Assembly: GCF_036670015.1 (NCBI RefSeq)
Contig: NZ_CP137636.1
Location: 1,652,501-1,716,500, forward strand
DNA: 64,000 nucleotides
Direction of reading: 5' to 3'
Source of the DNA: Niallia sp. XMNu-256
GTDB taxonomy: Bacteria > Bacillota > Bacilli > Bacillales > Cytobacillaceae
In this document: positions 1 through 19,060 of the stretch, in pieces
Position numbering within the stretch: position 1 is the stretch's first letter
Layout of the letters: each line of letters starts with the position of its first letter
Position numbers and translations under genes: made by a program
Notes under the pieces: generated by a model
The model's database searches: none
Told to the model about the DNA's origin: nothing
The model's input: the letters and a program-made list of their open reading frames with translations, nothing else

Positions 1-364
1 TCACCGTTGCCATGTTGGAGGATTAAATGTAAGCTTAGTTATTCCAAGAGAAGTGTTTAAGTCTGCCATCTTAAATAACTCTGCATCCATTATTTTGAGC
101 CATCAGCATCCAAGCGGGGATACATATCCAAGCAGAGAAGATATAGATGTAACTAAAAGATTAGTAGAATGCGGAAAGATCCTAGTGATTGATGTATTGG
201 ATCACTCTGCGCTGTGGTTAATCCTTGTTCCCTTTTGTAGCCCAATACCAAGACAGCAAAACGAAATCATTAATGAGGGTAATGAAGCGAATGAGCGGAA
301 TTATTGGAGGAAAGAAGAAATAAAGAAGTTTCTTACAATAACAAAACAGGATGAAGAAACCTAA
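1..364 (+). pseudogene. Chimeric remnant: radC fragment joined to integrase-like fragment
   Basis: The first ~205 bases are nearly identical to the 3' half of the intact radC-type gene at 21689-22132, including the JAMM-like HQHPSGD motif, but carry substitutions and diverge at about position 205. Downstream the frame continues into a Lys/Glu-rich stretch ([13 protein letters not shown]) that resembles the linker between the arm-binding and catalytic domains of phage-type tyrosine integrases. The 5' part of radC lies outside the window. The fusion has no catalytic integrase domain, so this is recombination debris. The integrase assignment rests on one short motif and is tentative. Confidence 0.65.
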
Positions 365-869: not shown

Positions 870-2054
870 ATGCATAATAATGCCTTTACAAATTTGGAAA
901 GGTCGATCTTCCGAGCGAATCCTGACTATGAGTTGGTATCGCTTGAAACTTTGCCGCCGGAAGAGAGAAAGAATCTCGAGTTCCTCACCAGTGACCCTAG
1001 TCACTACGGAATACTCAAACCACGCTCATCCGGACTAACTCCCAAGTCCATTAGCAAAGAGACCGCAAAATTATTGAACATACTCCAACAGCCTAATCAC
1101 CTGCCCAACTTTGTCAAAGAAACGCTTCATGAACAATGCAATCAGTTGATTGCCAAGTTTGTATTGGATGGTATCCTGGAGGTTCTGATCGGTGAGTCTT
1201 TCGTATGCGGCGTGAATGCTTATGAGTTGCTCTATGGTGAAAATCAATTATCAGAGACTGTGGATAGCAGGATCCAACAACTCTCAAGGCATGCGCTCCA
1301 GTATGCACAGTTCCTAGAGATTGATGATGTGAATCAACTAACAGCACGCCTATATTCCTACAACCGAATTCCATTATCCTCCGAGTGGATGCGAATATAT
1401 CCGACAACTGATGCGGTCTTTGAGCGGTTGGTTGCCCAATCAGGTCCCAACTTTAAAAAAATGTTGGACACAAATTGGACAAAAATCTCGGACGGAATCA
1501 ATGGAGGATGGTTGAGCTGGAGTTTGAAGCAGTCAGGCCGAATAGACCGGTCCGCTTTTAATTATAAACTTTATATCAGCCCCAGACCCGAGCCTGAGGT
1601 TATGTGTGCGGCATTTCAAGAATGTACAGCCGTTTTTACCGATCTACAGGTACGGCATTTCAAAGTTGGAAAGGATGCTGTTGGCCTGTTGCGTCCTGAT
1701 AAGATGGTTGCGTACTTTACCACTTTTGAAGAATGTGAGGAAACGGCCCGCCGTCTCCAACAAACACTGCAGGGTTGCCCGGCACAAGGAACACCATTTA
1801 CAGCCGAATTTACAAAAGATGGTCTGCTCTCTTGGGGAATGGACCCTCCGCACTACACGCACCGGTCCGGCTGGCAGGATACTTCCAGCTGGCGCATCTG
1901 GGTGAGTTCCCGTTTAGCTACTGCCCTGCATGTGGCCAAAGCCACATCCTATAGCCGGATTGAACCGTGGCGATTCGCGTTGCAACGCCTCGATCTGGAG
2001 GGGGTAGACACCGACACATGGGCACCGAATAAAAAAATCTGGCAAAAATTGTAA
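870..2054 (+). CDS. HopA1-like phospho-Ser/Thr lyase of lanthipeptide locus
   Basis: This 394-aa protein resembles the HopA1 type III effector family. In class V lanthipeptide clusters a HopA1-like protein (LxmY) eliminates phosphate from phospho-Ser/Thr in the precursor to give dehydroamino acids. The family pattern is visible in the C-terminal half: FNYKLYISPRPE, FKVG, RPDKMVAYF, PFTAEF, DGLLSWGMDPP. The first ~120 residues look like a separate helical region. ATG 870 sits 6-8 bases after GAGGAGGGG; a GTG at 867 is also possible. Only 13 bases separate it from the synthetase gene, implying one operon. The neighbouring synthetase has no lyase domain of its own, which supports a trans-acting role. 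Chemistry on this particular precursor is inferred. Confidence 0.75.
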   Translation: MHNNAFTNLERSIFRANPDYELVSLETLPPEERKNLEFLTSDPSHYGILKPRSSGLTPKSISKETAKLLNILQQPNHLPNFVKETLHEQCNQLIAKFVLDGILEVLIGESFVCGVNAYELLYGENQLSETVDSRIQQLSRHALQYAQFLEIDDVNQLTARLYSYNRIPLSSEWMRIYPTTDAVFERLVAQSGPNFKKMLDTNWTKISDGINGGWLSWSLKQSGRIDRSAFNYKLYISPRPEPEVMCAAFQECTAVFTDLQVRHFKVGKDAVGLLRPDKMVAYFTTFEECEETARRLQQTLQGCPAQGTPFTAEFTKDGLLSWGMDPPHYTHRSGWQDTSSWRIWVSSRLATALHVAKATSYSRIEPWRFALQRLDLEGVDTDTWAPNKKIWQKL

Positions 2055-2067
2055 GGAGGATTAACCG

Positions 2068-4515
2068 ATGTCCAATCAAGATGCTTTCATTCTTCCAGAA
2101 GATGTGGTTTTAATCCCTGTAAGAGATATGCCCAAGCATATCCTGAAACAGGTGGAGTATGAGGAAACTGACTATGTAATCTCTCGCGTGTCGTCACGTC
2201 ATAGATCCAGAATCATCGACGCAGAATTTGCGGACTTGATTCGCGAGTTCAAAACTGCCAAGACCATTGTTCAAGCGATTATCGGCTTTAGCAAGGCAAA
2301 AAAAATGGACCCGGAACAGACATTGGAAAACGGATTTCCAATGCTCCAGCGTTTTATTCATGCGGATATACTGGTACCGAAAAACTCTGAAAAATCCAAA
2401 ACCATCACTTCTTCCTTTAAACCGGGTGTCCACATCGCGGAATATGAAGTGGTACAATGTATTAGCTATACGGAAGACACGGAGCTCTACCAAGTCAAGG
2501 ATGTAAACGGTCATTTGGCCGCCCTGAAGATCGCCCGTCCCGAACGCAACGAGGAAATGAAAAACCTCTTGGTACGGGAGGCTGCTATCTTGAAACACTT
2601 GGATGGTCAGCATGTCCCGAAATTGTTGGATTCTGGAACTTTCCAAAATGCAGACTATCTCGTACTTGAATGGTTCGACGGTGCTACTCTGGCCGTATTT
2701 GTTCAAAATTTGCGGAATCTACGTGAAGGGAAAGATTGTAAAACACGCTTTCGCTTGTGTCGAAACATCCTTGTGGCATACGCTTACCTTCACAAGAAAG
2801 GTATCATTCATGGAGATATTCACGACAAGAACATCTTGGTAGATGATAATACAAACGTCAAAATCATTGATTTTGGCATTTCGTTAATGGATAGGAACGA
2901 TTCCGATCTAACGGAAGCACATCGAGCAGGGTTTGCTTTTTATTTTGAACCAGAATTTGTAGAATCCTATTTGACCCGACAGTTGCCTCCCCGTGCAAAC
3001 TATTTGTCAGATCAGTATTCGTTGGCTGCACTGCTGTATTACATCTTGACAGATTCTTATTACCTGGACTTATCTTATGACAAAAATGAATTGTTCAGAC
3101 AAATAGCAAAGGATGACCCGCTGCCTTTCTCCAATCATGGTATCGAATGGCCCGAGGTAGAAAATGTGCTCAGAAAAGCTTTAAGCAAGACACCAGCCCA
3201 ACGCTTTCCGTCTGTTTCCGAATTTTTGAAATGCTTCAGCAAAATTACAACGGAGCCGGTAATTACGCGGATGCAACCTGAAGAAACGGCAGAACCTGTC
3301 GACTTGAGCAATGCCCAGCGCTTGTTGGACGATGTGTTGGAAAGAATGGGTCATTTGTCAAGCCCTTTGCTGTCGGAAGATTATCCAACGGCTCCTACAT
3401 GCTCTGTTAACTATGGAATGGCAGGCATTGCATATGGGTTGTATCGAATAGCTATGAATCGTAAGGATGCTGAATTACTTTCGGTTGCGGATGTTTGGTT
3501 GAGCAAAGCCGTTGCGCAAACCGAAGCCAAAGCTGAGCGGGCCTTTACCAATGTGCAGCTAGAGCTGACCGCGGAAACTGTAGGGCGTATCTCTCCGTAC
3601 CACACGGCAAGCGGAGTTTATCTAGTGCAAGCCTTGATTAGCCGTGCACGGGGGGATTTCTTCGAACAACATTCGGCGATTGAAAAATTTATGGCTGCAA
3701 CAAATGCATCATGTGAAAACTTAGACTTTAAAATTGACAAGTCGAGTGTACTACCTTGTGACAACTTAGACCTTACACTTGGCAAGTCGAGTGTACTTCT
3801 TGCATGTTCCATTTTGCTTGATTCCATCACTGACAACGAATTGGCGGACAAGAATTCGTTGCTTGCACTAGGGAATGAGTTGATGACAAGCATTTGGAAT
3901 CAACTCAACCTGTTACCAACAATTCAAGAATGCCGGGGGCTTCCCCTTCTTGGCATTGCCCATGGCTGGGGCGGATTGCTGTATGCGGCCATGCGATGGT
4001 GTGAATCTTCAAGCCTCCCGATTCCGTCCCACATTGTCAATCGTCTGTACCAACTGGCTGAACTAGGCGATATAAAAGGAAATGGAATCGGTTGGCGAAG
4101 AGAGTATTCCAAGTACAAGCAACCTGATTATTTACCAGGCTGGTGCAATGGAAGTGCGGGTATGGTCTTCCTCTGGACTCTAGCTCATCAAATACTGAAG
4201 GATGAAAAATTCTTGGTTCTCGCCGAAAAAACAGCATGGAACGTTTGGGAAGAGCCTATATTCTCAGGTAACCTGTGCTGTGGGCTGGCAGGGCAAGCTT
4301 ATGGAATGTTGCATCTGTACAAACACGCAGGGGATACCAATTGGTTGTACCGTGCACAAGAATTTGCTAAGCGGGCGTCAGTCAATATTAAGTCAAATCC
4401 GATAAACATATCGAACAGTCTCTACAAGGGAGAGGTTGGAGTAGCTGTATTACTTTCTGATTTGGCCAAACCTGAAGCCTCCTGCCTCCCACTGTTTGAA
4501 AAAGAGATGTTTTAA
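2068..4515 (+). CDS. Lanthipeptide synthetase: PqqD-like + kinase + LanC-like cyclase
   Basis: This 815-aa protein would phosphorylate Ser/Thr of the precursor and then close thioether rings. Residues 1-105 look like a PqqD-type RiPP recognition domain. Residues ~120-400 are a Ser/Thr kinase with Lys154 (ALKIA), catalytic HGDIHDKN (248-255) and DFG (268-270). Residues ~430-815 form a LanC-like cyclase with His632 in AHGWGG, Cys693 in GWCNGS and Cys737-Cys738 in LCCGLAG. Canonical LanC proteins have Cys-His-Gly at the last site; Cys-Cys-Gly gives an all-Cys zinc site like the ProcM group of LanM enzymes. The N-terminus is too short for the OspF-like lyase of class III/IV enzymes, so the upstream HopA1-like protein probably supplies that step. 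AAGGAGG precedes ATG 2068. Confidence 0.85.
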   Translation: MSNQDAFILPEDVVLIPVRDMPKHILKQVEYEETDYVISRVSSRHRSRIIDAEFADLIREFKTAKTIVQAIIGFSKAKKMDPEQTLENGFPMLQRFIHADILVPKNSEKSKTITSSFKPGVHIAEYEVVQCISYTEDTELYQVKDVNGHLAALKIARPERNEEMKNLLVREAAILKHLDGQHVPKLLDSGTFQNADYLVLEWFDGATLAVFVQNLRNLREGKDCKTRFRLCRNILVAYAYLHKKGIIHGDIHDKNILVDDNTNVKIIDFGISLMDRNDSDLTEAHRAGFAFYFEPEFVESYLTRQLPPRANYLSDQYSLAALLYYILTDSYYLDLSYDKNELFRQIAKDDPLPFSNHGIEWPEVENVLRKALSKTPAQRFPSVSEFLKCFSKITTEPVITRMQPEETAEPVDLSNAQRLLDDVLERMGHLSSPLLSEDYPTAPTCSVNYGMAGIAYGLYRIAMNRKDAELLSVADVWLSKAVAQTEAKAERAFTNVQLELTAETVGRISPYHTASGVYLVQALISRARGDFFEQHSAIEKFMAATNASCENLDFKIDKSSVLPCDNLDLTLGKSSVLLACSILLDSITDNELADKNSLLALGNELMTSIWNQLNLLPTIQECRGLPLLGIAHGWGGLLYAAMRWCESSSLPIPSHIVNRLYQLAELGDIKGNGIGWRREYSKYKQPDYLPGWCNGSAGMVFLWTLAHQILKDEKFLVLAEKTAWNVWEEPIFSGNLCCGLAGQAYGMLHLYKHAGDTNWLYRAQEFAKRASVNIKSNPINISNSLYKGEVGVAVLLSDLAKPEASCLPLFEKEMF

Positions 4516-4619
4516 TATTGTGATTGGCTTATTACCTTGAAGGAAACAACCATTCAGAATTGACCATTTTTATATTGTTTGGTTGTGAAGCATAATATCT
4601 CATATCTTTTCAAATAGTA

Positions 4620-4635
4620 TAATCGAATAGGGAAT
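4620..4635 (+). promoter_or_regulatory. TAATCGAATAGG motif before precursor gene
   Basis: TATAAT at 4618-4623 overlaps the block TAATCGAATAGG, which matches the blocks at 781 and 5761 (TAATCGAATGGG). The site lies about 45 bases before the precursor start, so it may be a separate promoter or operator that lets the precursor be made in excess over the enzymes. No good -35 is visible. Confidence 0.4.
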
Positions 4636-4678
4636 CAATATTCTACTGCCATATCAATACAGAAAGGTTGCTGGTAAA

Positions 4679-5662
4679 ATGTCTGACATCCAGTCACAGC
4701 TTAAACTTACTAGGATGAAACTTGAGTTACTAAACGCGTTAGCCAAAGTGGAGGCACAGGAGTCGGCCCATTCACAAAGAGACATGTTTAGGGCGGTGGA
4801 CTTGGCGACAAACGTAGCATCCCCTAATAACATTGGTGCTGAAGGAGAATGCACATATACTTGTGGATCGACATGCTCAAGAACAGGTGCTGAACAGGTG
4901 GCGGGATATGCATCACCGGATTTACTTGCCGCAATGAAGGCAGAGTTGAAGAACGCGTTAGCCAAAGTGGAGGCACAGGAGTCGGCCCATCCACAAAGAG
5001 ACATGTTTAGGACGGTGGACTTGGCGACAAACGTAGCATCCCGTAACGATTGTGATGATAGAACATGCGGATTCACATGTACAAGTACATGCCCACGAAC
5101 AGTGGGTGACGAACAGGCGCGAAATGCATCACCAGATTTACTTGCCGCAATGAAGGCAGAGTTGAAGAACGCGTTGGCCAAAGTAGAGGCACAGGAGTCG
5201 GCTCATTCACAAAGAGACATGTTTAGGGCGGTGGACTTGGCGACAAACGTAGCATCCCCTAATAACATTGGTGCTGAAGGAGAATGCACATATACTTGTC
5301 AATCGACATGCTCAAGAACAGGTGCTGAACAGGTGGCGGGAAATGCATCACCGGATTTACTTGCCGCAATGAAGGCAGAGTTGAAGAACGCGTTAGCCAA
5401 AGTGGAGGCACAGGAGTCGACCCATGCACAAAGAGACATGTTTAGGACGGTGGACTTGGCGACAAACGTAGCATCCCGTAACGATTGTGATGATAGAACA
5501 TGCGGATTCACATGTACAAGCACATGCCCACGAACAGTGGGTGACGAACAGGCGCGAAATGCATCACCAGATTTACTTGCCTCAATGAAGGCAGAGTTGA
5601 AGAACGCGTTGGCCAAAGTAGAGGCACAGGAGTCGGCTCTTCGAAAAGAAGACAAGGCTTAA
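4679..5662 (+). CDS. Multi-core lanthipeptide precursor (four leader-core units)
   Basis: This 327-aa polypeptide repeats a helical leader (KNALAKVEAQESAH, then RDMFR, then VDLATNVAS) five times and places a Cys/Thr-rich core after each of the first four. Cores alternate. Type A (units 1 and 3) contains GECTYTC-G/Q-STCSRT. Type B (units 2 and 4) contains DDRTCGFTCTSTCPRT. The fifth leader copy ends in a Lys-rich tail with no core. Each core has three Cys at four-residue spacing, with Thr/Ser between them, suited to lanthionine or methyllanthionine rings. Each is followed by a spacer (NASPDLLAAMKAEL) that may hold a cleavage site. AAAGG lies about 11 bases before ATG 4679, a weak site. The start codon and in-register repeats make coding certain; modification is inferred from the adjacent lyase and synthetase. 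Confidence 0.85.
   Translation: MSDIQSQLKLTRMKLELLNALAKVEAQESAHSQRDMFRAVDLATNVASPNNIGAEGECTYTCGSTCSRTGAEQVAGYASPDLLAAMKAELKNALAKVEAQESAHPQRDMFRTVDLATNVASRNDCDDRTCGFTCTSTCPRTVGDEQARNASPDLLAAMKAELKNALAKVEAQESAHSQRDMFRAVDLATNVASPNNIGAEGECTYTCQSTCSRTGAEQVAGNASPDLLAAMKAELKNALAKVEAQESTHAQRDMFRTVDLATNVASRNDCDDRTCGFTCTSTCPRTVGDEQARNASPDLLASMKAELKNALAKVEAQESALRKEDKA
4733..5662 (+). repeat. Tandem coding repeat, 219/216 bp alternating
   Basis: Equivalent AAC codons of the leader lie at 4733, 4952, 5168, 5387 and 5603, giving periods of 219, 216, 219 and 216 bp, or a 435 bp A+B superunit repeated twice. The superunits are nearly identical at the base level, which points to recent duplication of an already duplicated A-B pair. 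Confidence 0.9.
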
Positions 5663-5705
5663 GGTGAAAGACACAGAGGTGGGTTAATCTAACACACCAT
5701 TTAAT

Positions 5706-5780
5706 AATCCAAAAAATCTAAGACCCTGCGTTTGGGTTTTAGTTTTTTATTCCAATGTTTTAATCGAATGGGTATAAAAT
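5706..5780 (+). repeat. Terminator-plus-motif repeat, copy 2
   Basis: This is a near-identical copy of the 728-800 unit and comes ~45 bases after the precursor stop. It acts as the terminator of the lanthipeptide operon and again carries the TAATCGAATGGGTATAAAAT block at 5761-5780. Confidence 0.75.
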
Positions 5781-5804
5781 TCATTTTTTGACATGCTTAT
5801 AAAA

Positions 5805-5848
5805 TCAATTGTCAGAGACTGTGGATAGTTGGATCTCACAACTCTCAT
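5805..5848 (+). pseudogene. Fragment copy of the HopA1-like lyase gene
   Basis: About 40 bases (TCAGAGACTGTGGATAG, then a diverged CAACTCTCA) match 1250-1285 inside the lyase gene. The fragment follows the second terminator repeat and runs directly into the metallopeptidase frame. It suggests that a second copy of the lyase region once lay here and was deleted. Confidence 0.6.
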
Positions 5849-6836
5849 TATAATTCAATCTATAAGGGGATATAAAATATCGGAATTTTTAGATTATGGA
5901 GCAAGGGAAAGAGGGACTTGGTTTCTCATTTATCCACAAAATAAAAAGATAGAAGGGTTTGCACAACCTGAAGTAGTTTATTTAAACGTACCACCGGGTT
6001 CAATTAAAGCTGGACCAGAGGATGATAGAATGTATGTAGTCGATGCAAAAAATAAGAAACCCTATAGTTTTAAAGGTGAAGGTCCTGGTTATGTAGGTTC
6101 CCGTTTCCCGCCTGTACAACCCAATGCCCAAGGACATTTTGATCATATTAAACCCGATGAGCGTGCGTTTTCCTCTATGACTATGTTTGCCATGGTTAGA
6201 CGTACCTTAGATATTTGGGAAGATTATTTCGGACATCGCATTAAGTGGCCTTTCAGTTTTCCTAAACTAGAGCTAATTCCTCGGGTAGAATGGGATAATG
6301 CACATTCGGGACCAGGGTTTATTGAATTTGGTTTTCCATGTGTAGAAAGGGAAAGAAAGTCTTTTAATTGTAAGACTTTAGACTATAGTAACCCTTATTG
6401 TGAGAACTTTGATGTTCTTGCCCATGAAATTGGTCATATAATCAAAAACGCTGTTATTAAACAGCCAGACTCAGAAGCCAAAGAAACCGAGGAGTATCAA
6501 GGACATCATGAAGCATTTGGGGATATAGTGGCTATTGTCGCTTCCTTGCACTTTAATTCAATAGTTGATCATCTCCTTAAAAATACAAAAGGAAATCTGT
6601 TTTCTGTTCATGAGTTATCGCGAGTGGGTGAATTAGATAAGACTCGTACAATTCGTATTGCTTTCAATGATAAAAAATTATCTGATATTAAGCCGATATT
6701 CGATGAGCGTCGAGGAAAGTGGGTAAGAGAGGAGCATCAACTCTCTGAGCCATTTACTGGCGGAGCTTTTGATGTGTTGGTGGAAGTTTTTCAACATAAT
6801 CTAATTGAAAAAGGCCTTATCTCTGAAGAATTGTGA
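5829..6836 (+). CDS. M4-like zinc metallopeptidase, N-terminal part (ends at in-frame TGA)
   Basis: A gluzincin-type metallopeptidase domain is clear: HEIGH at residues 199-203 gives two zinc ligands and the catalytic Glu, and Glu228 in HHEAFGD fits the third ligand of the thermolysin (M4) pattern. A late SEPFTGGAFDVLV motif also resembles M4 relatives. No signal peptide is visible, so action is probably cytoplasmic. TTG 5829 is only formal, since its first ~16 codons come from lyase debris; AAGGGG at 5864-5869 lies 7 bases before an in-frame ATA at 5877, which looks like the original start. The frame stops at TGA 6834-6836 but continues in phase to 7433. The role could be precursor processing or, because of its tail domain, a partner of the caspase-like gene downstream. 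Confidence 0.7.
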   Translation: MDLTTLIIIQSIRGYKISEFLDYGARERGTWFLIYPQNKKIEGFAQPEVVYLNVPPGSIKAGPEDDRMYVVDAKNKKPYSFKGEGPGYVGSRFPPVQPNAQGHFDHIKPDERAFSSMTMFAMVRRTLDIWEDYFGHRIKWPFSFPKLELIPRVEWDNAHSGPGFIEFGFPCVERERKSFNCKTLDYSNPYCENFDVLAHEIGHIIKNAVIKQPDSEAKETEEYQGHHEAFGDIVAIVASLHFNSIVDHLLKNTKGNLFSVHELSRVGELDKTRTIRIAFNDKKLSDIKPIFDERRGKWVREEHQLSEPFTGGAFDVLVEVFQHNLIEKGLISEEL

Positions 6837-7433
6837 AAGCGTTCCTATCATGTTAATAAACCCGAGGAAGTACGAGATATTCAAAGGGAGTTTGAACAGT
6901 GTTATCATGGAAAGGAAGGAGAGTTCAAAGATGCATTACTTAAGGCACGCGACTATTTCGGTCAACTAATGGCAAAAGCTTGGAGTAAAACCTCTCCTAA
7001 TGATTTATATTATTGGAAAGTATTGAACAATATGATTGTGGCTCACCAGGAATTAAGTAACGGCAAATATGAGCAAACAATCCGCGACAGCTTCAAATGG
7101 AGAGAAATTACTACCGATGTATTTTATAGACAAATTATCAAAACACACATTGTAGATGAATTAATTAATTTATCGACTGAAGATGAGATGGGATATATAA
7201 ATTTTCAGAATAGTATAGAGAATAATATAAGTACAATATCGATTTATCAGTTTGTATTAGCCATGAAAGCAATTGCGGAAAACGATCTTTGGGACGACCT
7301 TGTATACTATTTCGAAGAAAAGGGACAAGACAAAATATCGTTTTCTTCTAACCATGTTACTTTGCTAAAAGAAATATTCATTGAAAAGATTAAAGAGGGT
7401 AAGCCATTAATAAGCGTGGACTTCTATTTTTAA
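6837..7433 (+). pseudogene. C-terminal continuation of metallopeptidase with shared tail domain
   Basis: After TGA 6834 the same frame runs on without another stop through ATG 6969 to TAA 7433. If TGA is read through, one protein of ~520 aa results. If translation restarts at ATG 6969, a 154-aa tail protein is made, but no ribosome binding site is visible there. The last ~60 residues (FVLAMKAIAENDLWDDLVYY, then EEKGQDKISFSS) are almost identical to the C-terminus of the caspase-like protein at 7704-8897, also at DNA level. Compared with that copy, one base is missing near 7408, so the end is frameshifted (KPLISVDF instead of KPINKRGL). Confidence 0.65.
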
Positions 7434-7703
7434 GTAAGTGTAGCTGTGGTTGATTACAACAATAACTGGGTACTAACCGCGGTGAAGGTCTAACGATTTT
7501 TGGTCGACTTAGATGATAAAATATTTCTTCTAGCCTTTTACCATGTTGTAATACATCTAAAAAATGTTTCTAGTTTTATGTTTTTCTTATTTTTTTCTTT
7601 GGTGACAAGCACCCCCCTTTATATATTTCATTTGTACATATCTTTACTAAAAAACGCCTAAAATATTTAAAGATTTTGAAACAATTAGGAGGTTTAACTA
7701 AAA

Positions 7704-8897
7704 GTGCCTAAAGGATGCTCATTACATATTGGATTAAATTCAGTTGATCCACAACATTATTCAGGATGGAGTGGTGAATTAGGAGCCTGTGAAGCAGACG
7801 CAGAATCTATGGAATTAATTGCAAAATCATTAAATTATGAAAATATTTCTAAGCTCTTAACAAGCAATGCAACAATAGATAATGTGGTTAAAGAAATAAC
7901 GAACGCCGCATCTTCTTTAGAAAGCGGTGATATTTTTTTTCTTACTTATTCTGGACACGGTGGACAGATTCCTGATCAAGATAATGATGAATCCGATGGT
8001 TTAGATGAAACTTGGTGTTTATATGATGGGCAATTAACAGACGATGAATTATACTCACTTTGGCATCTTTTTAAGGAAGATGTACGAGTTATAGTTTTAT
8101 CAGATTCTTGTCATAGTGGAACAATAACTAGAGCTCATTATTACGGTTTAAGTGATTACTCGAATATTGATCCGTTTAATAATATATCATATAGATTTAT
8201 GCCAATCGGTATAATTAATAGAACGTTCGAAAAGAATAGAAAATTTTATACTGAAAAAAAGAGTCTGCTTATTGAAAAAAATACAAGTGAAATTAAATGC
8301 TCTGTTAAATTAATATCGGGTTGTCAAGACAATCAACTTGCCGCAGATGGATCTTATAACGGATTGTTCACTGCAACTTTATTATCAGTATGGAAAAATG
8401 GAGAATTTGTAGGGAACTATAAAAAATTTCTAAAACAAATTGAAAAGTTAATGCCTCCTAAACAAACTCCAAACCTTCTAGATATTGGAAAAGGAAATTC
8501 GACTTTTGATAATCAAAAACCATTTGTAATTAATTTGAATCCTCAAGAGGAACAACATCCTGAAGAGGAACAACATCCTGAAGAGGAACAAAATCCTCAA
8601 GAGGAACAAAGCCAGATTCGCTCCGTCCTTAACCCCAACCCTAAATTATGTACTATATCCATTTATCGGTTTGTTTTAGCAATGAAAGCTGTTGCAGAAA
8701 ATGATCTTTGGGACGACCTTGTATACTTTTTCGAAGAAAAGGGACAAGACAAAATATCGTTTTCTTCTGACCATGTTACTTTGCTAAAAGAAATATTCAT
8801 TGAGAAGATTAAAGAGGGTAAGCCTATTAATAAGCGTGGACTTCTATTTTTAAGTAAGTGCAGCAGTATTAATTACACCAATAACAATGGCGACTAA
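7704..8897 (+). CDS. Caspase-like (C14 metacaspase) protease with C-terminal adaptor-like domain
   Basis: Residues 1-260 form a caspase-hemoglobinase fold protease with the catalytic His85 in YSGHGG and Cys136 in SDSCHSG. Metacaspases cleave after basic residues and in bacteria often act in conflict or cell-death systems. Residues ~275-305 are a Glu/Gln/Pro-rich linker made of 6-aa repeats. The last ~90 residues carry a domain (ISIYRFVLAMKAVAENDLWD onward) shared with the metallopeptidase tail, comparable in arrangement to effector-associated domains that bring conflict proteins together by like-like binding. AGGAGG lies 14-19 bases before GTG 7704. No upstream sensor such as an NTPase is visible. 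The protease call is firm; the adaptor role is inferred. Confidence 0.85.
   Translation: MPKGCSLHIGLNSVDPQHYSGWSGELGACEADAESMELIAKSLNYENISKLLTSNATIDNVVKEITNAASSLESGDIFFLTYSGHGGQIPDQDNDESDGLDETWCLYDGQLTDDELYSLWHLFKEDVRVIVLSDSCHSGTITRAHYYGLSDYSNIDPFNNISYRFMPIGIINRTFEKNRKFYTEKKSLLIEKNTSEIKCSVKLISGCQDNQLAADGSYNGLFTATLLSVWKNGEFVGNYKKFLKQIEKLMPPKQTPNLLDIGKGNSTFDNQKPFVINLNPQEEQHPEEEQHPEEEQNPQEEQSQIRSVLNPNPKLCTISIYRFVLAMKAVAENDLWDDLVYFFEEKGQDKISFSSDHVTLLKEIFIEKIKEGKPINKRGLLFLSKCSSINYTNNNGD
8541..8609 (+). repeat. 18-bp tandem repeat encoding the caspase linker
   Basis: Almost four copies of an 18-bp unit encode P-Q/E-EEQH/N. The unit is a flexible acidic spacer between the protease and the C-terminal domain and is probably variable in length between strains. 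Confidence 0.9.
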
Positions 8898-8961
8898 GGC
8901 GGTTGAAGCCGCTACACTCCTCGTGCCCAAGAGATTTTATACAGCTTAATTTTAAGTAAGC

Positions 8962-9010
8962 AAAAATGCTATTCTTTCTAGCCTATAATTAGGAAGGGTG
9001 GCATTTTTTT
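8962..9010 (+). terminator. Terminator after caspase-like gene
   Basis: The arms AAAAATGC and GCATTTTTTT enclose a further short CTTTC/GAAGG pairing and end in a T run. The rest of the interval up to 9285 is very AT-rich and shows no gene. Confidence 0.6.
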
Positions 9011-9285
9011 AGTATCGAATCCTCTCCAAATAAAATGAAACAATTAGTTTGTCGTTTTTTGTCTAATATTGTAATTGTAAAAGCATTGGGATACAAAGTA
9101 CATTACTAATTTTTGATAATTATCTTTTTTTAATTGCAAAAAAACTATATATAAATGTGAAAAATATTATTTAAAAATGACGAACAGGCAATATTATACA
9201 AATAGTGTTTAATTTGGAAAAAATATAATGTAAAATTTAACTTATAAAATATAGATATTGCAGTATAGAGAGGGGATTTATTCTT

Positions 9286-11061
9286 ATGAATATTACACCA
9301 CGTGGAATGAGTGTAATGAATTTATATCAGCTTTATCGGAACAAGTGTTTATTAGTCAATAGGAAATATCAGAGGAAACTTGTTTGGACCCGTGCTGAAA
9401 AAGAAGCACTAATTGATAGCGTCCTACAACAATACCCTATTCCGTTAATCTTACTTGCAGAGAAAGGTATTAATTTTGAAGGACAAACTACATTCGAAAT
9501 AATAGATGGTATGCAAAGATTAAACGCCTTATTTAGTTTTATTGAAAATGAATTCACTGTTAATGGCTTTTATTTTGATGTTACTCAGCATCCCACAGCT
9601 AACACGCTGGCAAAGGATGGAGTATTTACTCCTGTTGAAGGAGAAGGAATTAAATTTCTTGATCAAAAAAAATGTGCTGCATTTTTAGAGTATCAACTTC
9701 CTATATCGACATTCCAAGGTTCAGAAAAAGAAGTTATAGAGGTATTTGGACGGATTAATTCCAATGGTAAGCATTTATCTCCTCAAGAGGTTAGACAAGC
9801 AGGTACAACTACTGTGTTTTCTGATTTGGTTAGGGAATTAAGTTCTGAAATTCGTGGGGATGTATCTAAAGAAGTATTATCATTAACCGAGATGCCAGAG
9901 ATTAGTATTGATTCTAAAAATATTGCATTAGGGTATGGGGTAACAGCTGATGAAACATTCTGGTGTAATCAAGGGATTCTAAGGGTTTCTCATGTAAGGG
10001 ACAGTGAGGATGAGCAACTAATTGCTGACATTATATTATCTGTTGCTTTAAAAGAGCCATTTTCTGCAAGTAAGGAAAACTTTGATAATTATTATCAAAA
10101 TGATAAAAAGAAATTGGAGATAGAATCAGCCATAGCAACTTATGGTAGAGAAAATTTAAAAAACGATATTAAATTAGTGTTGGATAAAATACATAATTTA
10201 ATTTCTTTTGGGTTTTCAGAAAGAAATTATTTGAAAAATATTTTAAACCCTAATGCTGGTAGTAATGCTGTAAAAGAACCTTTTTACACACTTTTTATGG
10301 CAATGTATCAGTTAGTGGTTGTTGAAAATAAGGAGCCATTTAATATTGAAAGTATTTTAGAAAGTTTAAAGGGACTTGCCTCTAGGTTAAAGTCAGCCAA
10401 AAGTATTTCTATTTCTAACAGAATTTCAAATATTAATTTGACCATTGGACTTATACAAAATTACTTCAAACAATCATCAAAATCACTTAGAAGTTTAGGA
10501 TTATTAGCAATTGATTTCGAGAATTATCTACGGTTATCAAAGGTTGAGCCACCTTATTATGATTTTAAACAGGGTTTTTACACACTTGATGATAAAAGCA
10601 GGTTATTTGATGAGAATAGTTTTGAAAAAATTATTCACAATATTACTGCAATGGCTAATCTCGGAAAAGGAAAAAAAGGATGGCTCTTTATAGGTGTAAC
10701 TGATCGTGAAGCCCATACAATACGAGTAGAAGATTTAGATGGAATCACTGCTCCAAGAGTTGGGGATTACGGTGTTGTAGGTCTTGAGAGAGAGGCTGTA
10801 TTAAAAGGTGTAAGTTTAGACCAATATATAGCATTCATTACAACAAAAATAAATGATTCTGCACTCCCTGATAAGATTAAGGCTGATATCACATCAACAA
10901 TGACCCCAATTAATTATAAAGGGAAAACTGTATTGATGCTGGAAATTGCATGTGGGGATGAACCGTGTTGGTATGGTGAGGAGATGTATATTAGGGATGG
11001 AGGAAGATGCAAAAAAATTAATGGGTCTGATGTAGCTCTGGTTTATTCTAGGTTTAGGTAA
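9286..11061 (+). CDS. DUF262 (GmrS/DndB-like) fused to AlbA_2/Schlafen-like domain
   Basis: Residues 1-~150 form a DUF262 domain with the NRKYQRKLVWTRAEKEALID segment and the hallmark IDGMQRLNAL (DGxxR) motif, which in GmrSD-type enzymes belongs to the nucleotide-dependent nuclease half. A helical middle follows. Residues ~430-591 match the AlbA_2 or Schlafen-type ATP-binding/nuclease domain (DFKQGFY, ITAMANLGKGKKGWLFIGV, YIRDGG). Both domains are common in anti-phage and other conflict proteins, so a defence role is likely but inferred. AGAGGGG lies ~12 bases before ATG 9286. The gene is preceded by ~380 AT-rich bases and stands alone, ending at the hairpin at 11197. Confidence 0.75.
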   Translation: MNITPRGMSVMNLYQLYRNKCLLVNRKYQRKLVWTRAEKEALIDSVLQQYPIPLILLAEKGINFEGQTTFEIIDGMQRLNALFSFIENEFTVNGFYFDVTQHPTANTLAKDGVFTPVEGEGIKFLDQKKCAAFLEYQLPISTFQGSEKEVIEVFGRINSNGKHLSPQEVRQAGTTTVFSDLVRELSSEIRGDVSKEVLSLTEMPEISIDSKNIALGYGVTADETFWCNQGILRVSHVRDSEDEQLIADIILSVALKEPFSASKENFDNYYQNDKKKLEIESAIATYGRENLKNDIKLVLDKIHNLISFGFSERNYLKNILNPNAGSNAVKEPFYTLFMAMYQLVVVENKEPFNIESILESLKGLASRLKSAKSISISNRISNINLTIGLIQNYFKQSSKSLRSLGLLAIDFENYLRLSKVEPPYYDFKQGFYTLDDKSRLFDENSFEKIIHNITAMANLGKGKKGWLFIGVTDREAHTIRVEDLDGITAPRVGDYGVVGLEREAVLKGVSLDQYIAFITTKINDSALPDKIKADITSTMTPINYKGKTVLMLEIACGDEPCWYGEEMYIRDGGRCKKINGSDVALVYSRFR

Positions 11062-11196
11062 TATAAATTTAGCCTACTGTTCATCTATGTCTCAACTCAT
11101 GTATAAATCTGTACGTTGTTGACAAATGGGAATCGGAACATATAATTGGGTTACCAAACGAGCATTGGATCACCGTATAACAAAAAAACCATATTG

Positions 11197-11229
11197 TTCC
11201 CTACTCTTTATGCAGTAGGGAATTTTTTA
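11197..11229 (+). terminator. Terminator after DUF262-AlbA gene
   Basis: TTCCCTACT and AGTAGGGAA form a 9-bp stem with an 8-base loop, followed by a run of T. Confidence 0.8.
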
Positions 11230-11325
11230 TGAAAAAGATTAATTTGTTTATAAAGGTATATTTTCAAAAGTGCAGAAATTCTGCAAGAAAATCTGCAAAG
11301 CTATGAAATACCGAAAGTTAAGAGA

Positions 11326-11727
11326 TTGGATTGGGATATTCTCCCTGTTGGAAGTATGCCGTGGGAACATTTTAAACCAAAACTCACTCCACTTTTGGAA
11401 AAAGCATCAAAGGGTAAGAAAACGATTATCACGGAAAGATTAGAAACGGTTTCAAAGTATAAGCCTGACTTTCACGCTATCGGAACGAATGGATATCGAG
11501 GATATATTATTTTCGGATTTACTAAATTAAATCTATATATCTTCGAAACGGCTGAATACGGAAATGCAACTTATGTTTTTGAAGGAAATTGGGAAACCCT
11601 TTCTCAGATGACTAAAGCAGAAATTATTTCTGACAACTTGTACAAGCAACGATTTATTCATCTAGATGGATGGGCTAATCAAATAGACAGTCTTTTTCCA
11701 AGTAATTACAAAAAGATGATTTCTTAG
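11326..11727 (+). CDS. Hypothetical protein, probably 5'-truncated
   Basis: The frame encodes 133 aa from a TTG but is open further upstream to a stop near 11257 without any ATG or GTG. The upstream residues (AEILQENLQSYEIPKVKRLD) look like real coding, so the true start is probably missing. The protein is a mixed alpha/beta sequence with GYRGYIIFGF and a Trp-rich N-terminus. I do not recognise the family. Weak initiation and lack of neighbours suggest a relic. Confidence 0.45.
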   Translation: MDWDILPVGSMPWEHFKPKLTPLLEKASKGKKTIITERLETVSKYKPDFHAIGTNGYRGYIIFGFTKLNLYIFETAEYGNATYVFEGNWETLSQMTKAEIISDNLYKQRFIHLDGWANQIDSLFPSNYKKMIS

Positions 11728-11857
11728 TAACCAAAAAAGCAGTGGTAAACATTACTACTGCTTTTACTTCCTCAATACCATTTTCTAAAGTTAAAGTGGG
11801 ACTTCAAACTCAATGAAATAGTAATTATAATTAAAAAATAGAATAGGAGAATGGAAT

Positions 11858-12154
11858 ATGCCTTATGTTGGAGCACGTGTATCAGAGGAAAATAAACTCG
11901 TAGAATGGTATAACTTAAAGCGATTAGGGATAATGTTATTAAATGGAATACATCATGTTGATGAATTACGTGCTCGTATATGGGAACATGAAGAATTACA
12001 GGGCATTGCAGATGAAATTCTTGCTTCAGGAACTTACAGTTTTGATTTTGAATTCTATGACGAAAGTAGTCCTGAACAAATTCTAAGATTGGATTATGTT
12101 TATCGAGGGGTTCAAAAAAGCATTAGTTATATATGGAAAGCAAAAAAAGACTGA
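11858..12154 (+). CDS. Small hypothetical protein (98 aa)
   Basis: ATAGGAGA lies 8 bases before ATG 11858. The product is acidic and soluble, with a helical first half (WEHEELQGIADEILASG) and a strand-rich second half. No known motif is seen. It ends just before a strong terminator and is probably transcribed alone. Confidence 0.6.
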   Translation: MPYVGARVSEENKLVEWYNLKRLGIMLLNGIHHVDELRARIWEHEELQGIADEILASGTYSFDFEFYDESSPEQILRLDYVYRGVQKSISYIWKAKKD

Positions 12155-12173
12155 TAAAATCAGTCTTTTTTTA
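12142..12173 (+). terminator. Terminator after 98-aa gene
   Basis: A GACTGAT/ATCAGTC stem with an A-rich 5' side and T7 3' side overlaps the last codons of the gene and could work in both directions. Confidence 0.85.
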
Positions 12174-12332
12174 TTGGCTGCTTTTCATATACATAGAGGT
12201 TCTTCATGTTGTCCGAAGGAAGTATTTGTTGATATTAAAGGAGATTAGTAAAAGGAAAAGTGAGTATATGGTATAGTTTGATTATTAAAAACTATGAATC
12301 TAGAAGTTTTCGTAATCATAGGAGGATAAGCC

Positions 12333-12986
12333 ATGGGGGCTAAAGTGTGGACAGCAATAGTAGCATTTTTTACCAATTCTTGGATAGTCAGTATCATAAC
12401 AGGGCTTTTCGTATATGTAGTAACTAAATGCTGGGAATCTTTTAGAAATAAAAGACAGTATATGCAGTCTGTTCAGCTAGCGAATAAAGAAGTTTTTGAC
12501 ACTTTTAAATTATGTGTAACAGAGGATAATCTGCCTGATATGTATATTTTTTGGGCTCTACATATATCTACAGCCAAAAAATTTGGTGTAAAACAAGAGG
12601 ATATGGACAGCCTTAGGTTAATTATTTTTGATTTAATTAAGGAGATTATGGATTCAACCTTTCTTCCTTATGAAGTAAAAATCAAATATTGTAATCAACT
12701 CCTTGACTCTGCTGTATCTGAGCAGACGCTAGAAGCTCTTCTTGAAGAAGAAAAAGCGATGATTGAAACGCACAAATCAACTTTGGCTCCACTTAAGACA
12801 ATGACAAGTTATCTATTAGCTTTTGCAGCTGCAATAATTACATTTGGTTTTTTAAATAGTAACAGCGTAGAGGCTCTGTTAAATGCATGGGATATGCTCA
12901 AATTAATGGATTTTGTATCAATAGCTGGGCTTTCTGTGATTTTAGTTGCTATTTTAGTTAGATACGATGAAAAGAAGAAAAAATAA
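12333..12986 (+). CDS. Membrane protein of unknown function (217 aa)
   Basis: AGGAGG precedes ATG 12333 by 8 bases. One membrane segment lies at residues ~15-32, a long helical cytoplasmic region follows (~33-150), and two hydrophobic segments lie at ~155-173 and ~190-208, ending in a Lys-rich tail. I do not recognise the family. Such proteins are common in defence islands, and its position between a DUF262 protein and a PLD-like protein fits, but no function can be assigned. Confidence 0.65.
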   Translation: MGAKVWTAIVAFFTNSWIVSIITGLFVYVVTKCWESFRNKRQYMQSVQLANKEVFDTFKLCVTEDNLPDMYIFWALHISTAKKFGVKQEDMDSLRLIIFDLIKEIMDSTFLPYEVKIKYCNQLLDSAVSEQTLEALLEEEKAMIETHKSTLAPLKTMTSYLLAFAAAIITFGFLNSNSVEALLNAWDMLKLMDFVSIAGLSVILVAILVRYDEKKKK

Positions 12987-13032
12987 GCTATTTTATATGT
13001 TTACTTTATTGTCAACAGGGATTAACTACATA

Positions 13033-13070
13033 GATAAAAAACGACCGTCAAATGAAGGTCGTTTTTTATC
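13033..13070. terminator. Bidirectional terminator
   Basis: GATAAAAAACGACC and GGTCGTTTTTTATC pair perfectly around a 10-base loop. It serves the plus-strand membrane gene and the small minus-strand frame next to it. Confidence 0.85.
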
Positions 13071-13074
13071 TATC

Positions 13075-13188
13075 TTATTCGCTCATATACTCAGCACTTA
13101 CAGCGATACCAGCAAGACCAGTCCAAGTTGTTTCTGTTAACACGGATATAAGGAATTTTGGTTTTAGAAGACTAGGTAATTTTTTCAT
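13075..13188 (-). CDS. Small peptide gene (37 aa), minus strand
   Basis: GGGAGAGATG lies just before the minus-strand ATG at 13188. The peptide begins MKKLPSLLKPKF and ends SAEYMSE. The frame is open further upstream and there includes a hydrophobic LGLLLLAIVL stretch, so a longer form of ~70 aa is possible. A candidate promoter on the minus strand (TGGACT, 17-base spacer, extended -10 TGATATAAT) sits near 13340-13368. An inverted repeat (GCTCATATACT-C/G-AGCACTTACA at 13081 and ~13305) frames the unit. A small toxin-type peptide is conceivable; no family is recognised. Confidence 0.35.
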   Translation of the reverse strand: MKKLPSLLKPKFLISVLTETTWTGLAGIAVSAEYMSE

Positions 13189-13431
13189 GGACATCTCTCC
13201 CGTCATTATTTTTAAGCTGATAATTCTTAATACAATTGCTAACAGGAGTAAGCCTAGTGCTACTGGTATAGATGGGGCTGCAGTTACACTTGTAAGTGCT
13301 CAGTATATGAGCTGTTTAATTGTAATTATTATATCACAAATATTCAGAAAAGTCCAGGTTGGTCAAATTACACTTTTAAATCTCACTAAAAAGAGAAGAT
13401 TGTTTTATCAATCTTCCCCTGTTTTCCTTTA

Positions 13432-13690
13432 TTAGCGATCCAATAAACGGTCTATAAATCCCTTTTTCTATTGTGCTTCTTTATCATCCTGGATAATTTT
13501 GAACATAATTTCATTTTTTTCTGTAAGGAACGCATTTTCTTCTCGTAATTTTTTTAGCTCTTCCATGATTTCTTTCATAGATGAAGCCGTTTTTTCAGAA
13601 GTTTTCCTGAATGTTTTTATCAAGTTTTTCATTAAATACTTGCTTTTCCTCCTGTTCCTTTTTCATTCTTCAGGCGTGTGGTGATTTGTA
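13432..13690 (-). pseudogene. Decayed coiled-coil plasmid protein (DUF3967-like tail)
   Basis: Successive minus-strand frames read KKEQEEKQVFNEKLDKN, then MKEIMEELKKLREENAFL, then after a TAG stop KKGFIDRLLDR. Together they resemble the C-terminal coiled coil and aromatic/basic end of DUF3967-type proteins on Bacillus plasmids, broken by a frameshift and a nonsense codon. The N-terminal HTH part is missing. The hairpin GAAGATTG/CAATCTTC at ~13392-13414 is probably its terminator. Confidence 0.5.
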
Positions 13691-13831
13691 TGATTTCATC
13701 CTAAACAAATAAAAATGCCTTAGATTCGATTCTCGTCCGTTAAATAAGCATGAACCAATTTTTTATTTATTTTTATGTTATTTCGTTATATATAAGGAAT
13801 AACACGCTAATCACACCTAGCGTTATCTACG

Positions 13832-14887
13832 TTATTTATTCTCCAATTCTTTTTGTCCATTAATATGTTTTAATAGAAAGTTCTTTACCTCTACTATATC
13901 TTTCATCCTCATATCAAGTAGTTCGAACAAGCTACTAAAATAACTGTATGTATCCTTTTTGAATATTTCAAAATAAGGAACAGAAGGAGTTTTGAACAAC
14001 TGAAAGATATTTCGAATTATGCTTTGACTCTCATAAAAGGGGTTGTAACCATCATATTCACCATCGAATTTAGGTTCAAAACCAAACCGTATAAGGTAAG
14101 AAACTAAATCATCTACATCTGTCACTTCTTGATGTTCATCATCATACAGATTTTTAAGTAAATCGTCTAAATGTTCTATGCAATGTATTAAAAACAAAGC
14201 ATCAAGCTCGAAGTCATCCTTAAATGCCTGTATATAATCTTCTCCTTTTACTTCTCCTTGAACTATCAATTCAGTATGACGAGAAAATAAGTCTTCATAT
14301 AACTTCTTTATAGATTCAATGGTATTCTCTAGGTCCGTATATAAATTAATAAAATATTCCCCAATCATAATCATCCTACTATCAATAGCAATTGACTTCT
14401 CATGATTAGTTAGTAATGGAATTAATTCATTAAAGATTTTCGCTACATATTCAGGGTTCTTTATAAGAACTCCTGCTTCAATACTTTCTTTACCATAGAA
14501 ATTTCCTGAACCGATATAAGCTATATTTTCAGTCATAACAATTTTTAGATGAGCATTAAGATTAATATAATGAGCAATATTGTCTTTATCTTTTTTAAAA
14601 AGCTCCATATATTTTTGAATATTTCTTTGTGCTTTTTTAATTTCTTCATTAGATAATTTAGAGCGATGTTCTTCCTTAAAAACATTAGGTACACTTGTAA
14701 TTAGAGTTACTTTTGCTTTAGCGTTCTTTATATGTTTAAGAAGTTCGTCTTTATATGTAATGCTGTAAGTAGTGATAAAGATTTCATTAGCGTTAGGAAA
14801 ATCATTAAGTACATCTTGAAAATTATAATCTCCTTCTGAACAAATAAATTCAAAATCCCCTAGTGGAATCCTTGCTATCACTCCCAT
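13832..14887 (-). CDS. Phospholipase D-like domain protein
   Basis: This 351-aa protein has one PLD-type motif near residues 113-130 (HLKIVMTENIAYIGSGNFYG: His-x-Lys followed by a GSGN). The N-terminal strand-rich region (EIFITTYSIT) fits the PLDc_2 fold. The C-terminal ~200 residues are helical and unassigned. A single HKD motif suggests a homodimer forming one active site, as in small PLD nucleases. It stands alone, with a hairpin (CACGCTA/TAGCGTT) at ~13801-13826 as terminator. Location in this accessory block suggests a defence nuclease, which is inference. Confidence 0.7.
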   Translation of the reverse strand: MGVIARIPLGDFEFICSEGDYNFQDVLNDFPNANEIFITTYSITYKDELLKHIKNAKAKVTLITSVPNVFKEEHRSKLSNEEIKKAQRNIQKYMELFKKDKDNIAHYINLNAHLKIVMTENIAYIGSGNFYGKESIEAGVLIKNPEYVAKIFNELIPLLTNHEKSIAIDSRMIMIGEYFINLYTDLENTIESIKKLYEDLFSRHTELIVQGEVKGEDYIQAFKDDFELDALFLIHCIEHLDDLLKNLYDDEHQEVTDVDDLVSYLIRFGFEPKFDGEYDGYNPFYESQSIIRNIFQLFKTPSVPYFEIFKKDTYSYFSSLFELLDMRMKDIVEVKNFLLKHINGQKELENK

Positions 14888-15137
14888 ATTTTAAACCCCT
14901 TTCGTTTTATGATTTTAATTTTAATTGTAGTAGACTTTTTCTAAAAGATTTATATCAATAGTAATTTACAAATTAATCAAAAAGGGACGGAAAAAAGGAC
15001 TAAAAAATAGCTTTGAAATCTGTACTATCAAGGGTTTAGAGCATCAAACTATCTTTATGTTATTTATTTTATATAATAGTACAAATTACTCGAATACCTT
15101 ATAGTAAAAATAGAAGAATCAAAGGACGGTTAATATT

Positions 15138-15374
15138 ATGAGTAAAAATACTGGAAGAAATAAATCATATGAAACAGTTCATTACGATAAAATTTGGTTT
15201 AAAAGTAAAGTAAAATTCCCTAATTCGGACTGTACCTATGTATTTAAAATTGTAGAAATCCAAAGTAAGTTTTACATTTACATAAACGAAAAAGAAGAAA
15301 TATTTCTATACAACGGCAGAACCGGTCCCTTTAATTCATATGAAGAAGCTTTACAAGTGCTACAAGAGATTTAG
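15138..15374 (+). CDS. Small hypothetical protein (78 aa)
   Basis: The frame starts at ATG 15138 after a weak GGACGG site. The product is basic, strand-rich, rich in Tyr/Phe, and ends in a helix (FNSYEEALQVLQEI). No family is recognised. A further open frame overlaps its 3' end in another phase. Confidence 0.5.
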   Translation: MSKNTGRNKSYETVHYDKIWFKSKVKFPNSDCTYVFKIVEIQSKFYIYINEKEEIFLYNGRTGPFNSYEEALQVLQEI

Positions 15375-15625
15375 GTAACAATTTTCCAACTTTCAAAAAT
15401 AAATTCAAAAATACATTTTTAAACACTGATAGTCCAAGTGGCTGTTTGTTAGGTTGGTTATTTTATATAGTTTATCTAATTGTTAACATAGTTTGTTTTC
15501 TATTTATAAAAGGCGGACTAGAAGCAATAGGAATAGAAGATAAAAACTACACAGTAACTATAATCCTGATAGGCATTATAAACATCATAGCTATAAGTAA
15601 GATATCAAACAGAAAGGGAAAATAA
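15344..15625 (+). pseudogene. Small membrane-protein frame lacking a start codon
   Basis: This open frame reads as a two-helix membrane protein (LLGWLFYIVYLIVNIVCFL, then TIILIGIINIIAIS) with a basic tail, but has no ATG or GTG. The only usual start is an in-frame TTG deep in the frame without a ribosome binding site. It is probably a 5'-truncated gene. Confidence 0.35.
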
Positions 15626-15815
15626 ACCACAGATAGCTGGCAAAGCCAAAATTAGAAGGGTATCTTGAGAGGTTTAACTAAACCAGCTAATAGTTTGTCA
15701 ACATTTTTCAATAAATAGATTGATAATCTCGTGATATACTAAAAATACTCATGATAAATAACCTTCCTCTATATTGTAATTGGAAGGTTTTGTTGTATTT
15801 AGTTGGATATAGTTT

Positions 15816-15953
15816 TTAAGCTATATCTTGGAAAGTAGTTCTGTTTTTTAGTAAGGCGTAAATCCAATGTAAGGGCTTATTAACACATGCAATGACTGCG
15901 ACTCTGAAGGGTTTTCCTTCTTCTCGTTTCTTATCATAAAACTCTCTTAGTCA
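15816..15953 (-). mobile_element. IS110-family transposase 3' remnant
   Basis: The minus strand reads REFYDKKREEGKPFRVAVIA, then CVNKPLHWIYALLKN, ending in a stop at 15816, which matches the C-terminal end of IS110-type (transposase_20) proteins. The rest is gone: at 15953 it abuts unrelated plus-strand sequence (GEELVAGVIDNEFLEI) that looks like another short relic. Upstream at 15760-15798 the arms AACCTTCC/GGAAGGTT form a terminator-like hairpin. Confidence 0.6.
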
Positions 15954-16178
15954 CGGTGAAGAATTAGTTGCGGGGGTAATTGATAACGAGTTCTTAGAAA
16001 TATGTACAGAAAAAAGTTTAGGTACTTATCCAAAAGAGAATGGGTATAGATTGCGATAGATTCAAACTACTATGGTTTATGGGAAATCCTATAAAAATTT
16101 AAAGGTAAGGAAGGTGAACAAGAGGGAACCTTAGAATTTATTGAATTTAATAAACTCTTTTGTTTTATCGGCATACAT

Positions 16179-16213
16179 AGTTAAAGTCTTCTCGATTAGA
16201 GAAGACTTTAACT
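16179..16213. terminator. Strong bidirectional terminator
   Basis: A perfect 15-bp stem (AGTTAAAGTCTTCTC and its complement) encloses a 5-base loop. It ends the minus-strand small gene at 16222. The stretch from 15954 to 16178 shows only short broken frames. Confidence 0.8.
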
Positions 16214-16221
16214 ATTTGTAG

Positions 16222-17432: not shown

Positions 17433-17596
17433 TTCTATCATTTATGCGGATAGGCTTTTTTATTTGATTATCTTTAGTAAAGATCGGGATTAGCTTATGA
17501 TCAGTCAGAGAAATCTGGGTGACTATTTTTTTATATAATATAGAGTTAGAGTTAGGATAATGCGGATTTACAACAGTAAAGAGCAAAAATAAACAA

Positions 17597-19042: not shown

Positions 19043-19060
19043 TTATGTTCAATAGCAATC

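Follow-up and report, generated by a model that had tools for sequence, protein, structure and literature searches.

What a bacterium makes from a single polypeptide in which leaders and cores alternate several times over is the question raised by a 327-aa open reading frame (positions 4679–5662, ATG start) of Niallia sp. XMNu-256. It lies in a stretch of 64,000 nt (contig NZ_CP137636.1, positions 1,652,501–1,716,500), hereafter the window, in which position 1 is the first nucleotide; all cluster features given below are on the forward strand. We consider it quite likely that this ORF and its neighbors form a lanthipeptide cluster with a multi-leader, multi-core precursor, which is the best reading of the sequence. 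The anatomy of the precursor, the co-occurrence of the genes in two genera, the selection acting on them and the pattern of catalytic residues are what the sequences show, whereas the reactions and the order in which they run, as well as cleavage and export, are what we infer.

The precursor gene was delimited from the ORF list and its direct repeats, which comprise a 176-nt repeat in four copies (spacing 216/219/216) and a 300-nt pair, 435 bp apart and 95% identical. The recurrence of these 300 nt 435 bp further on marks a duplicated A-B pair. Sequence differences among the copies show that a single unit has not just been counted more than once. Division of the protein into units gives the order leader-A-leader-B-leader-A′-leader-B, followed by a fifth leader consisting only of the helix, with helices of the precursor predicted from sequence throughout. 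Leader 1 (4694–4822, aa 6–48), an N-terminal variant with SQLKL..RMK, precedes core A (4823–4912, aa 49–78); then come leader 2 (4913–5041, aa 79–121) and the first copy of core B (5042–5128, aa 122–150), leader 3 (5129–5257, aa 151–193) and core A′ (5258–5347, aa 194–223), leader 4 (5348–5476, aa 224–266) and the second copy of core B (5477–5563, aa 267–295), and finally the terminal helix-only leader with its tail (5564–5659, aa 296–327). With a multi-core precursor defined by at least two cores per ORF, the frame at 4679–5662 qualifies. A preliminary description of this DNA had counted five leaders and four cores (A, B, A′, B) in one polypeptide and had noted that the last leader has no core. 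Both observations were borne out: a plasmid of Paenibacillus peoriae carries the same three genes with a precursor of 250 aa in which the architecture recurs in three units, whose leaders are conserved and whose cores differ. The terminal helix and tail are kept there too, so that the last leader is not simply a broken unit. The region 5′ of the precursor (4575–4678) is also similar to its P. peoriae counterpart and is assumed to hold a promoter.

The same anatomy could be parsed the other way round, as core-follower units in which the enzymes bind the helix C-terminal to each core and the first helix is the odd one. Five helices do bracket four cores, and the terminal helix and tail are conserved, but the first leader is complete (43 aa) and the last is helix only, and we regard this parsing as improbable. 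Taking the repeated segments as leaders, we find them strongly conserved, including the stretch MFRxVDLAxNVA. The class III/IV leader motif (L/I/V/M/T four times, at every third position, as defined in the available text of PMC12328550) occurs in only 1 of the 7 leaders, and leader amphipathicity did not exceed that of shuffled sequences.

Core A reads PNNIGAEGECTYTC[G/Q]STCSRTGAEQVAG and core B RNDCDDRTCGFTCTSTCPRTVGDEQARN. The two A copies had been described as differing only at G/Q; the G/Q difference at the central residue stands, while the residue at the C-terminal edge differs too (Y77 in A, N222 in A′). The two B cores are identical as protein and one silent base apart. All seven aligned cores, four from the window and three from P. 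peoriae, contain C-x2-T-C-x3-C, and on this alignment cores A and B are variants of one such scaffold, B having an extra N-terminal Cys (four per B core against three per A core). The cores account for 118 of the 327 residues of the window precursor and hold 14/14 of its Cys (hypergeometric P = 3.8e-7), along with 24 of its 50 Ser/Thr. Weak Pfam matches of the precursor to nine families, among them DUF760 (21.3 bits against a whole-protein cut-off of 20.2, no single stretch passing), and PHROGs matches to five families, again with no stretch passing alone, were put down to summed repeat and helix composition.

The presence of two core types at 2:2, from which one translation might supply two peptides in equal measure, had suggested a two-component lantibiotic, in which A and B would act together. 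The P. peoriae cores are of one type, two identical and one variant, and the survey of homologues that had been proposed, for which P. peoriae is the one relative known, returned the expected change in unit number (4 versus 3) but no conservation of the A-B alternation. With A and B sharing one scaffold, and with alternation and unit number both unconserved, a genuine two-component system is not supported, and we think it very improbable. Comparisons among precursors, here and below, rest on two known examples, those of the window and of P. peoriae.

The enzymes encoded beside the precursor argue for lanthionine chemistry. The first is a protein of 394–395 aa (867–2054, starting at GTG 867 or ATG 870), for which searches of Pfam, PHROGs, PADLOC and the sequences of the PDB gave no match under the thresholds applied; a PDB search with the lyase profile gave no match at E 10. 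PF17914 (LanY) matched neither the window lyase nor its two relatives, and the control was matched in 4 of the 14 genomes of that search. Pfam matches to NdhM (0.0059) and CagY_M (0.15) each appeared in one of the three lyases, neither of them in that of the window, and were not used. All three proteins share an invariant K234-K266-R276-Y283, whose spacing of 32/10/7 is that of CaoY R187-K219-R229-Y236 (residues as given in the available part of PMC9486802); random placing of the invariant K, R and Y residues reproduced the pattern in 15 of 200,000 trials. A CaoY K219A variant left its peptide phosphorylated but not eliminated (PMC9486802). At position 234 the window protein shares Lys with SpvC, in contrast to the Arg of CaoY, and the position of SpvC His106 is occupied by Tyr. 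We read the 395-aa protein as a putative divergent LanY, that is, a LanY-like phospho-Ser/Thr lyase.

The second enzyme (2068–4515, 815 aa) is a fused synthetase with an N-terminal domain, a Ser/Thr kinase and a LanC cyclase (Pkinase 8.8e-26, LANC_like 4.1e-31). Its kinase domain (2431–3237, aa 122–390) also passes the Pfam APH cut-off (1.8e-10), below its Pkinase score. Residues K154, HGD (248–250), N255 and DFG (268–270) of the kinase are invariant across the three relatives, as are H632, C693, C737 and C738 of the LanC domain (3403–4482, aa 446–805; WCNG / CCG), the three Cys presumably being the zinc ligands. In alignment, WCHG and (L/I)CHG of LANCL1/2 correspond to WCNG and LCCG; the CCG form is tied to low substrate specificity in ProcM-like enzymes, according to the accessible portion of a review (PMC12328550). 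An in-frame tandem duplication within the LanC domain (3712–3797; 41-nt copies, 45 nt apart, 88%) is absent from both relatives. The best NCBIfam matches, LanL (142.6, cut-off 650) and LanKC (95.8, cut-off 575), stay far below their cut-offs. The synthetase itself has no N-terminal lyase domain, the lyase-like protein being a separate gene. A LanC-type synthetase here adjoins a precursor whose cores contain both Cys and Ser/Thr, the combination by which we recognize a lanthipeptide locus.

Given these enzymes, the fused kinase would phosphorylate Ser/Thr of each core, the separate LanY-like lyase would remove the phosphate to form dehydroamino acids, and the LanC domain would add core Cys to them. 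Two related peptides, in two copies each, would then be released by cleavage close to the conserved NVA[S/P] and [N/Y]ASP boundaries. With an N-terminal leader in front of every core, the enzymes could proceed along one chain.

The gene at 5829 was considered as a leader protease and left out of the cluster: its M10 match (E 0.091) is under the cut-off, and no such gene was found by eye beside the P. peoriae genes. Relatives of this gene occur in 160 plasmid records, 127 of them from Rhizobium. No transporter or protease gene was seen in the cluster, either among the window ORFs and in a family scan of 9 proteins, or in the P. peoriae annotation, which is incomplete in PLSDB, and a scan of 5 proteins. 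The precursor might accordingly be modified and left uncut, its helices spacing lanthionine-ringed domains along a multivalent chain, comparable to multi-core graspetides. We hold this to be rather unlikely: the absence of a protease or exporter beside the genes in either species and the conserved terminal helix are in its favor, but a protease gene is also absent from many class III clusters, and the repeated segment is leader-like and so strongly conserved, MFRxVDLAxNVA included, that it looks like a recognition element and not a spacer.

The N-terminal domain of the synthetase (2068–2397, aa 1–110) is a candidate RRE-like precursor-recognition domain. A homologue is fused to a 2OG-Fe(II) oxygenase of Cupriavidus; the N-terminal part of this oxygenase matches the P. 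peoriae synthetase at E 1e-12, and 27 of 115 columns are invariant in an alignment of four rows. The same domain on two unrelated enzymes of the Cupriavidus cluster suggests precursor recognition. Comparison of the domain with PqqD by hhalign gave a score of 14.2, which 5 of 60 column shuffles matched (best 17.1) and which is therefore not significant, and the domain has no PF05402 match. Its topology in a single-sequence model of low confidence (mean pLDDT 49) is EEE-HHH, three strands and then three helices, the order expected of an RRE. A PDB search with the N-terminal profile returned six matches, all to eS17 ribosomal proteins with E of at least 0.017, which we took as chance. The accessible text of a 2023 paper (PMC10604976) states that no class II–V core enzyme has an identifiable RRE, a statement that would change if this domain is an RRE. 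Separately, the same genome encodes a PqqD-family protein of about 108 aa (contig 3880827–3881027; 7.4e-20), perhaps belonging to another RiPP cluster.

The linkage of the two enzymes extends beyond Niallia. Of 72,556 plasmid records, two matched the synthetase, and these two also matched the lyase: P. peoriae HS311 and Cupriavidus oxalaticus X32. Identities are 83.5% and 34.9%, respectively, for the lyase and 85.2% and 35.2% for the synthetase; a separate comparison of the synthetases gave 87% and 37%. This adjoining of kinase-LanC fusion and LanY-like lyase in two genera, together with leaders that are conserved and cores that vary, upholds the original proposal of a lanthipeptide poly-precursor. 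In C. oxalaticus, neighbors of the enzyme pair include LanB, a cupin and the 2OG-Fe(II) oxygenase; this locus (15001–24120) has a full-length LanB beside the kinase-LanC/LanY pair, the cupin and the domain-fused oxygenase, a possible hybrid pathway. One Cupriavidus ORF there (19511–19936) has a helix, but 69 of 1000 shuffles reach its leader score and we do not claim it as a precursor. Two precursor matches in C. metallidurans (27.6%) fell in a long coiled-coil ORF, with no LanC-like gene seen by eye among ORFs of at least 130 aa at that locus, and were attributed to chance, and a Gemmataceae locus with similarity in the kinase region (26%) was rejected.

Among sampled genomes, the synthetase was matched in 1/101, 1/398 and 0/394 and the lyase in 1/193, 1/398 and 0/394, the only genome matched being the window's own; these samples overlap, and both 0/394 results come from searches run without a positive control. 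In the sets of 398 and 394, at most two synthetase and four lyase candidates were scored per genome among the matches listed. On this sample, the system looks rare in the window's phylum. Genome contigs, in a scan able to pick up close relatives only, yielded no real relative; three scans of viral contigs gave none either, and phages gave no match with the lyase as sole query.

Selection was gauged by comparison with P. peoriae. The dN/dS values of 0.28 for the lyase and 0.23 for the synthetase place both enzymes under purifying selection. In 12 pairs of units taken across the two species, dN was 0.074–0.267 in leaders, where all values above 0.12 pair the first leader with an internal one, and 0.409–0.87 in cores. 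A conserved leader with a variable core is the usual pattern of RiPP precursors. Synonymous change is raised in the cores as well (dS 0.80–1.07 versus 0.32–0.50 in leaders; core dN/dS 0.43–1.04) and the core alignments are gapped, so the cores are either fast-evolving or replaced, and positive selection is not proven; the change may reflect replacement or loose alignment rather than selection. The first-leader variant SQLKL..RMK and the terminal tail are common to both precursors. The chain architecture therefore probably arose before the two species separated, with the number of units (4 or 3) and the type of core changing afterward.

Gene order has changed too. P. peoriae has precursor, hairpin, lyase and synthetase, while the window has hairpin, lyase, synthetase, precursor, hairpin and 47 bp of lyase sequence. 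The hairpins lie in two copies of a 94-bp repeat, 90% identical, one upstream (716–809; stem 732–746/754–768; −18.1 kcal/mol, z −5.1) and one downstream (5696–5789; stem 5718–5742; −14.4 kcal/mol, z −3.7); the hairpin is kept upstream of the lyase in P. peoriae, and all three copies fold better than shuffles (z −5.1, −3.7 and −3.4). The 47 bp (5801–5847) appear to be a relic of a second lyase copy, identical at 42/47 positions to window 1240–1286 (E 1e-13) and 85% identical to the P. peoriae lyase gene. In the simplest account, the arrangement looks like a tandem duplication of an ancestral precursor-hairpin-lyase-synthetase operon, from which the first precursor and the greater part of the second pair of enzymes were later lost. 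In the ancestral order, the hairpin may have been a leaky terminator between precursor and enzymes. A terminator scan gave 5 sites (5.3 in shuffles), the downstream copy being the only one of the hairpin copies listed, and promoter-like sites numbered 10 against 9.6 in shuffles.

This rearrangement by duplication and loss, the LanC insertion and the weak DUF760 match might be taken as signs of a decayed cluster, or of a repeat or structural protein that stays unmodified while the enzymes act elsewhere. The genes are linked in two genera whichever the gene order, the enzymes are under purifying selection, and Cys is confined to the variable cores. These points argue against this, the least probable of the explanations weighed here.

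A lanthipeptide in its logic, the locus appears to match none of the classes compared (III, IV and V) in precursor form and enzyme set. Class V (cacaoidin, lexapeptide, pristinin; LanK and LanY) has a separate LanY lyase beside the kinase; the putative LanY-type lyase here also stands beside a kinase and shows the catalytic spacing of CaoY. The LanK of class V is a lone APH-type protein, whereas the kinase here has its best score with Pkinase and forms a fusion with LanC; in addition, CaoY Arg187 is Lys in the window lyase, which lacks a PF17914 match, and no flavoprotein or reductase family was found among the 9 window proteins scanned. Class III/IV enzymes (LanKC/LanL) also place kinase before LanC in one protein, LanL being the best NCBIfam match, but they carry the lyase in that protein, whereas here it is a separate gene and the family cut-offs are missed. 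The enzyme set, a kinase-LanC fusion with a separate lyase, lies between classes III/IV and V. Class VI (LanKCb, streptococci) has a LanKC-like enzyme and is likened here by name only, from the accessible portion of a review. LanM cyclase domains of the ProcM type share the CCG motif with a different dehydratase. ProcM systems use many separate precursors, not one chain, and the multi-core RiPP precursors of microviridins, cyanobactins and graspetides generally have one leader, unlike the leader per core seen here. Those groups likewise carry several cores per polypeptide, whereas the enzymes here are of the lanthionine type.

Our literature search found no multi-core lanthipeptide, with partial coverage of subscription journals, so that an earlier description is possible. 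A 2026 paper (PMC13343206), in its available portion, calls multi-core lanthipeptide precursors unreported, and a 2024 survey notes that some predicted lanthipeptides contain tandem duplications, which slightly lowers the odds of the full proposition set out below. Gene pairs of the class V type have been described in Firmicutes (161) and, as distant forms, in Proteobacteria (PMC7794033, part of the text), so distribution alone is not the novelty; a 2025 review, in the part accessible, gives class V products as actinobacterial only. We place just short of an even chance the full proposition that this is the first natural multi-leader, multi-core lanthipeptide precursor, that its synthetase falls outside classes I–V (peptide-recognition domain, Ser/Thr kinase and three-Cys zinc LanC, with a separate LanY-type lyase), that the pair moved between Bacillota and Betaproteobacteria via plasmids, and that the recognition domain also sits on a tailoring oxygenase. 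The locus and its counterpart in a second species are direct candidates for a multi-core lanthipeptide, and, with a leader before every core, would allow a test of how a synthetase works along its substrate chain.

The GC content of 0.435–0.479 over 1001–6000, compared with 0.284–0.362 over 7001–21000, marks the cluster as a likely import. Two radC copies form a 1.09-kb direct repeat, 92% identical (window 1–205, reaching upstream to contig ~1651631, and 20989–22075; the first radC has a different C-terminus), that brackets about 22 kb with the lanthipeptide cluster and defense-like genes. Three proteins are encoded at 5829–8897: one resembling a metallopeptidase, with a HEIGH motif recognized by eye, one of 154 aa, and a C14 caspase (1.3e-19); among the three, PADLOC returned 'caspase' only. 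The 154-aa protein and the caspase share, by eye, a domain (FVLAMKA.AENDLWDDLVY.FEEKGQDKISFSS) and might make up an effector-associated-domain conflict module. At 9286–11061, a GmrSD_N and Schlafen AlbA_2 fusion (PADLOC NsnA 5e-26 and six others) is a candidate defense gene. Further along, positions 28294–39386 carry, by eye, iron ABC uptake genes and, after them, genes for siderophore synthetases of the IucA/IucC type, for an MFS exporter and for a decarboxylase.
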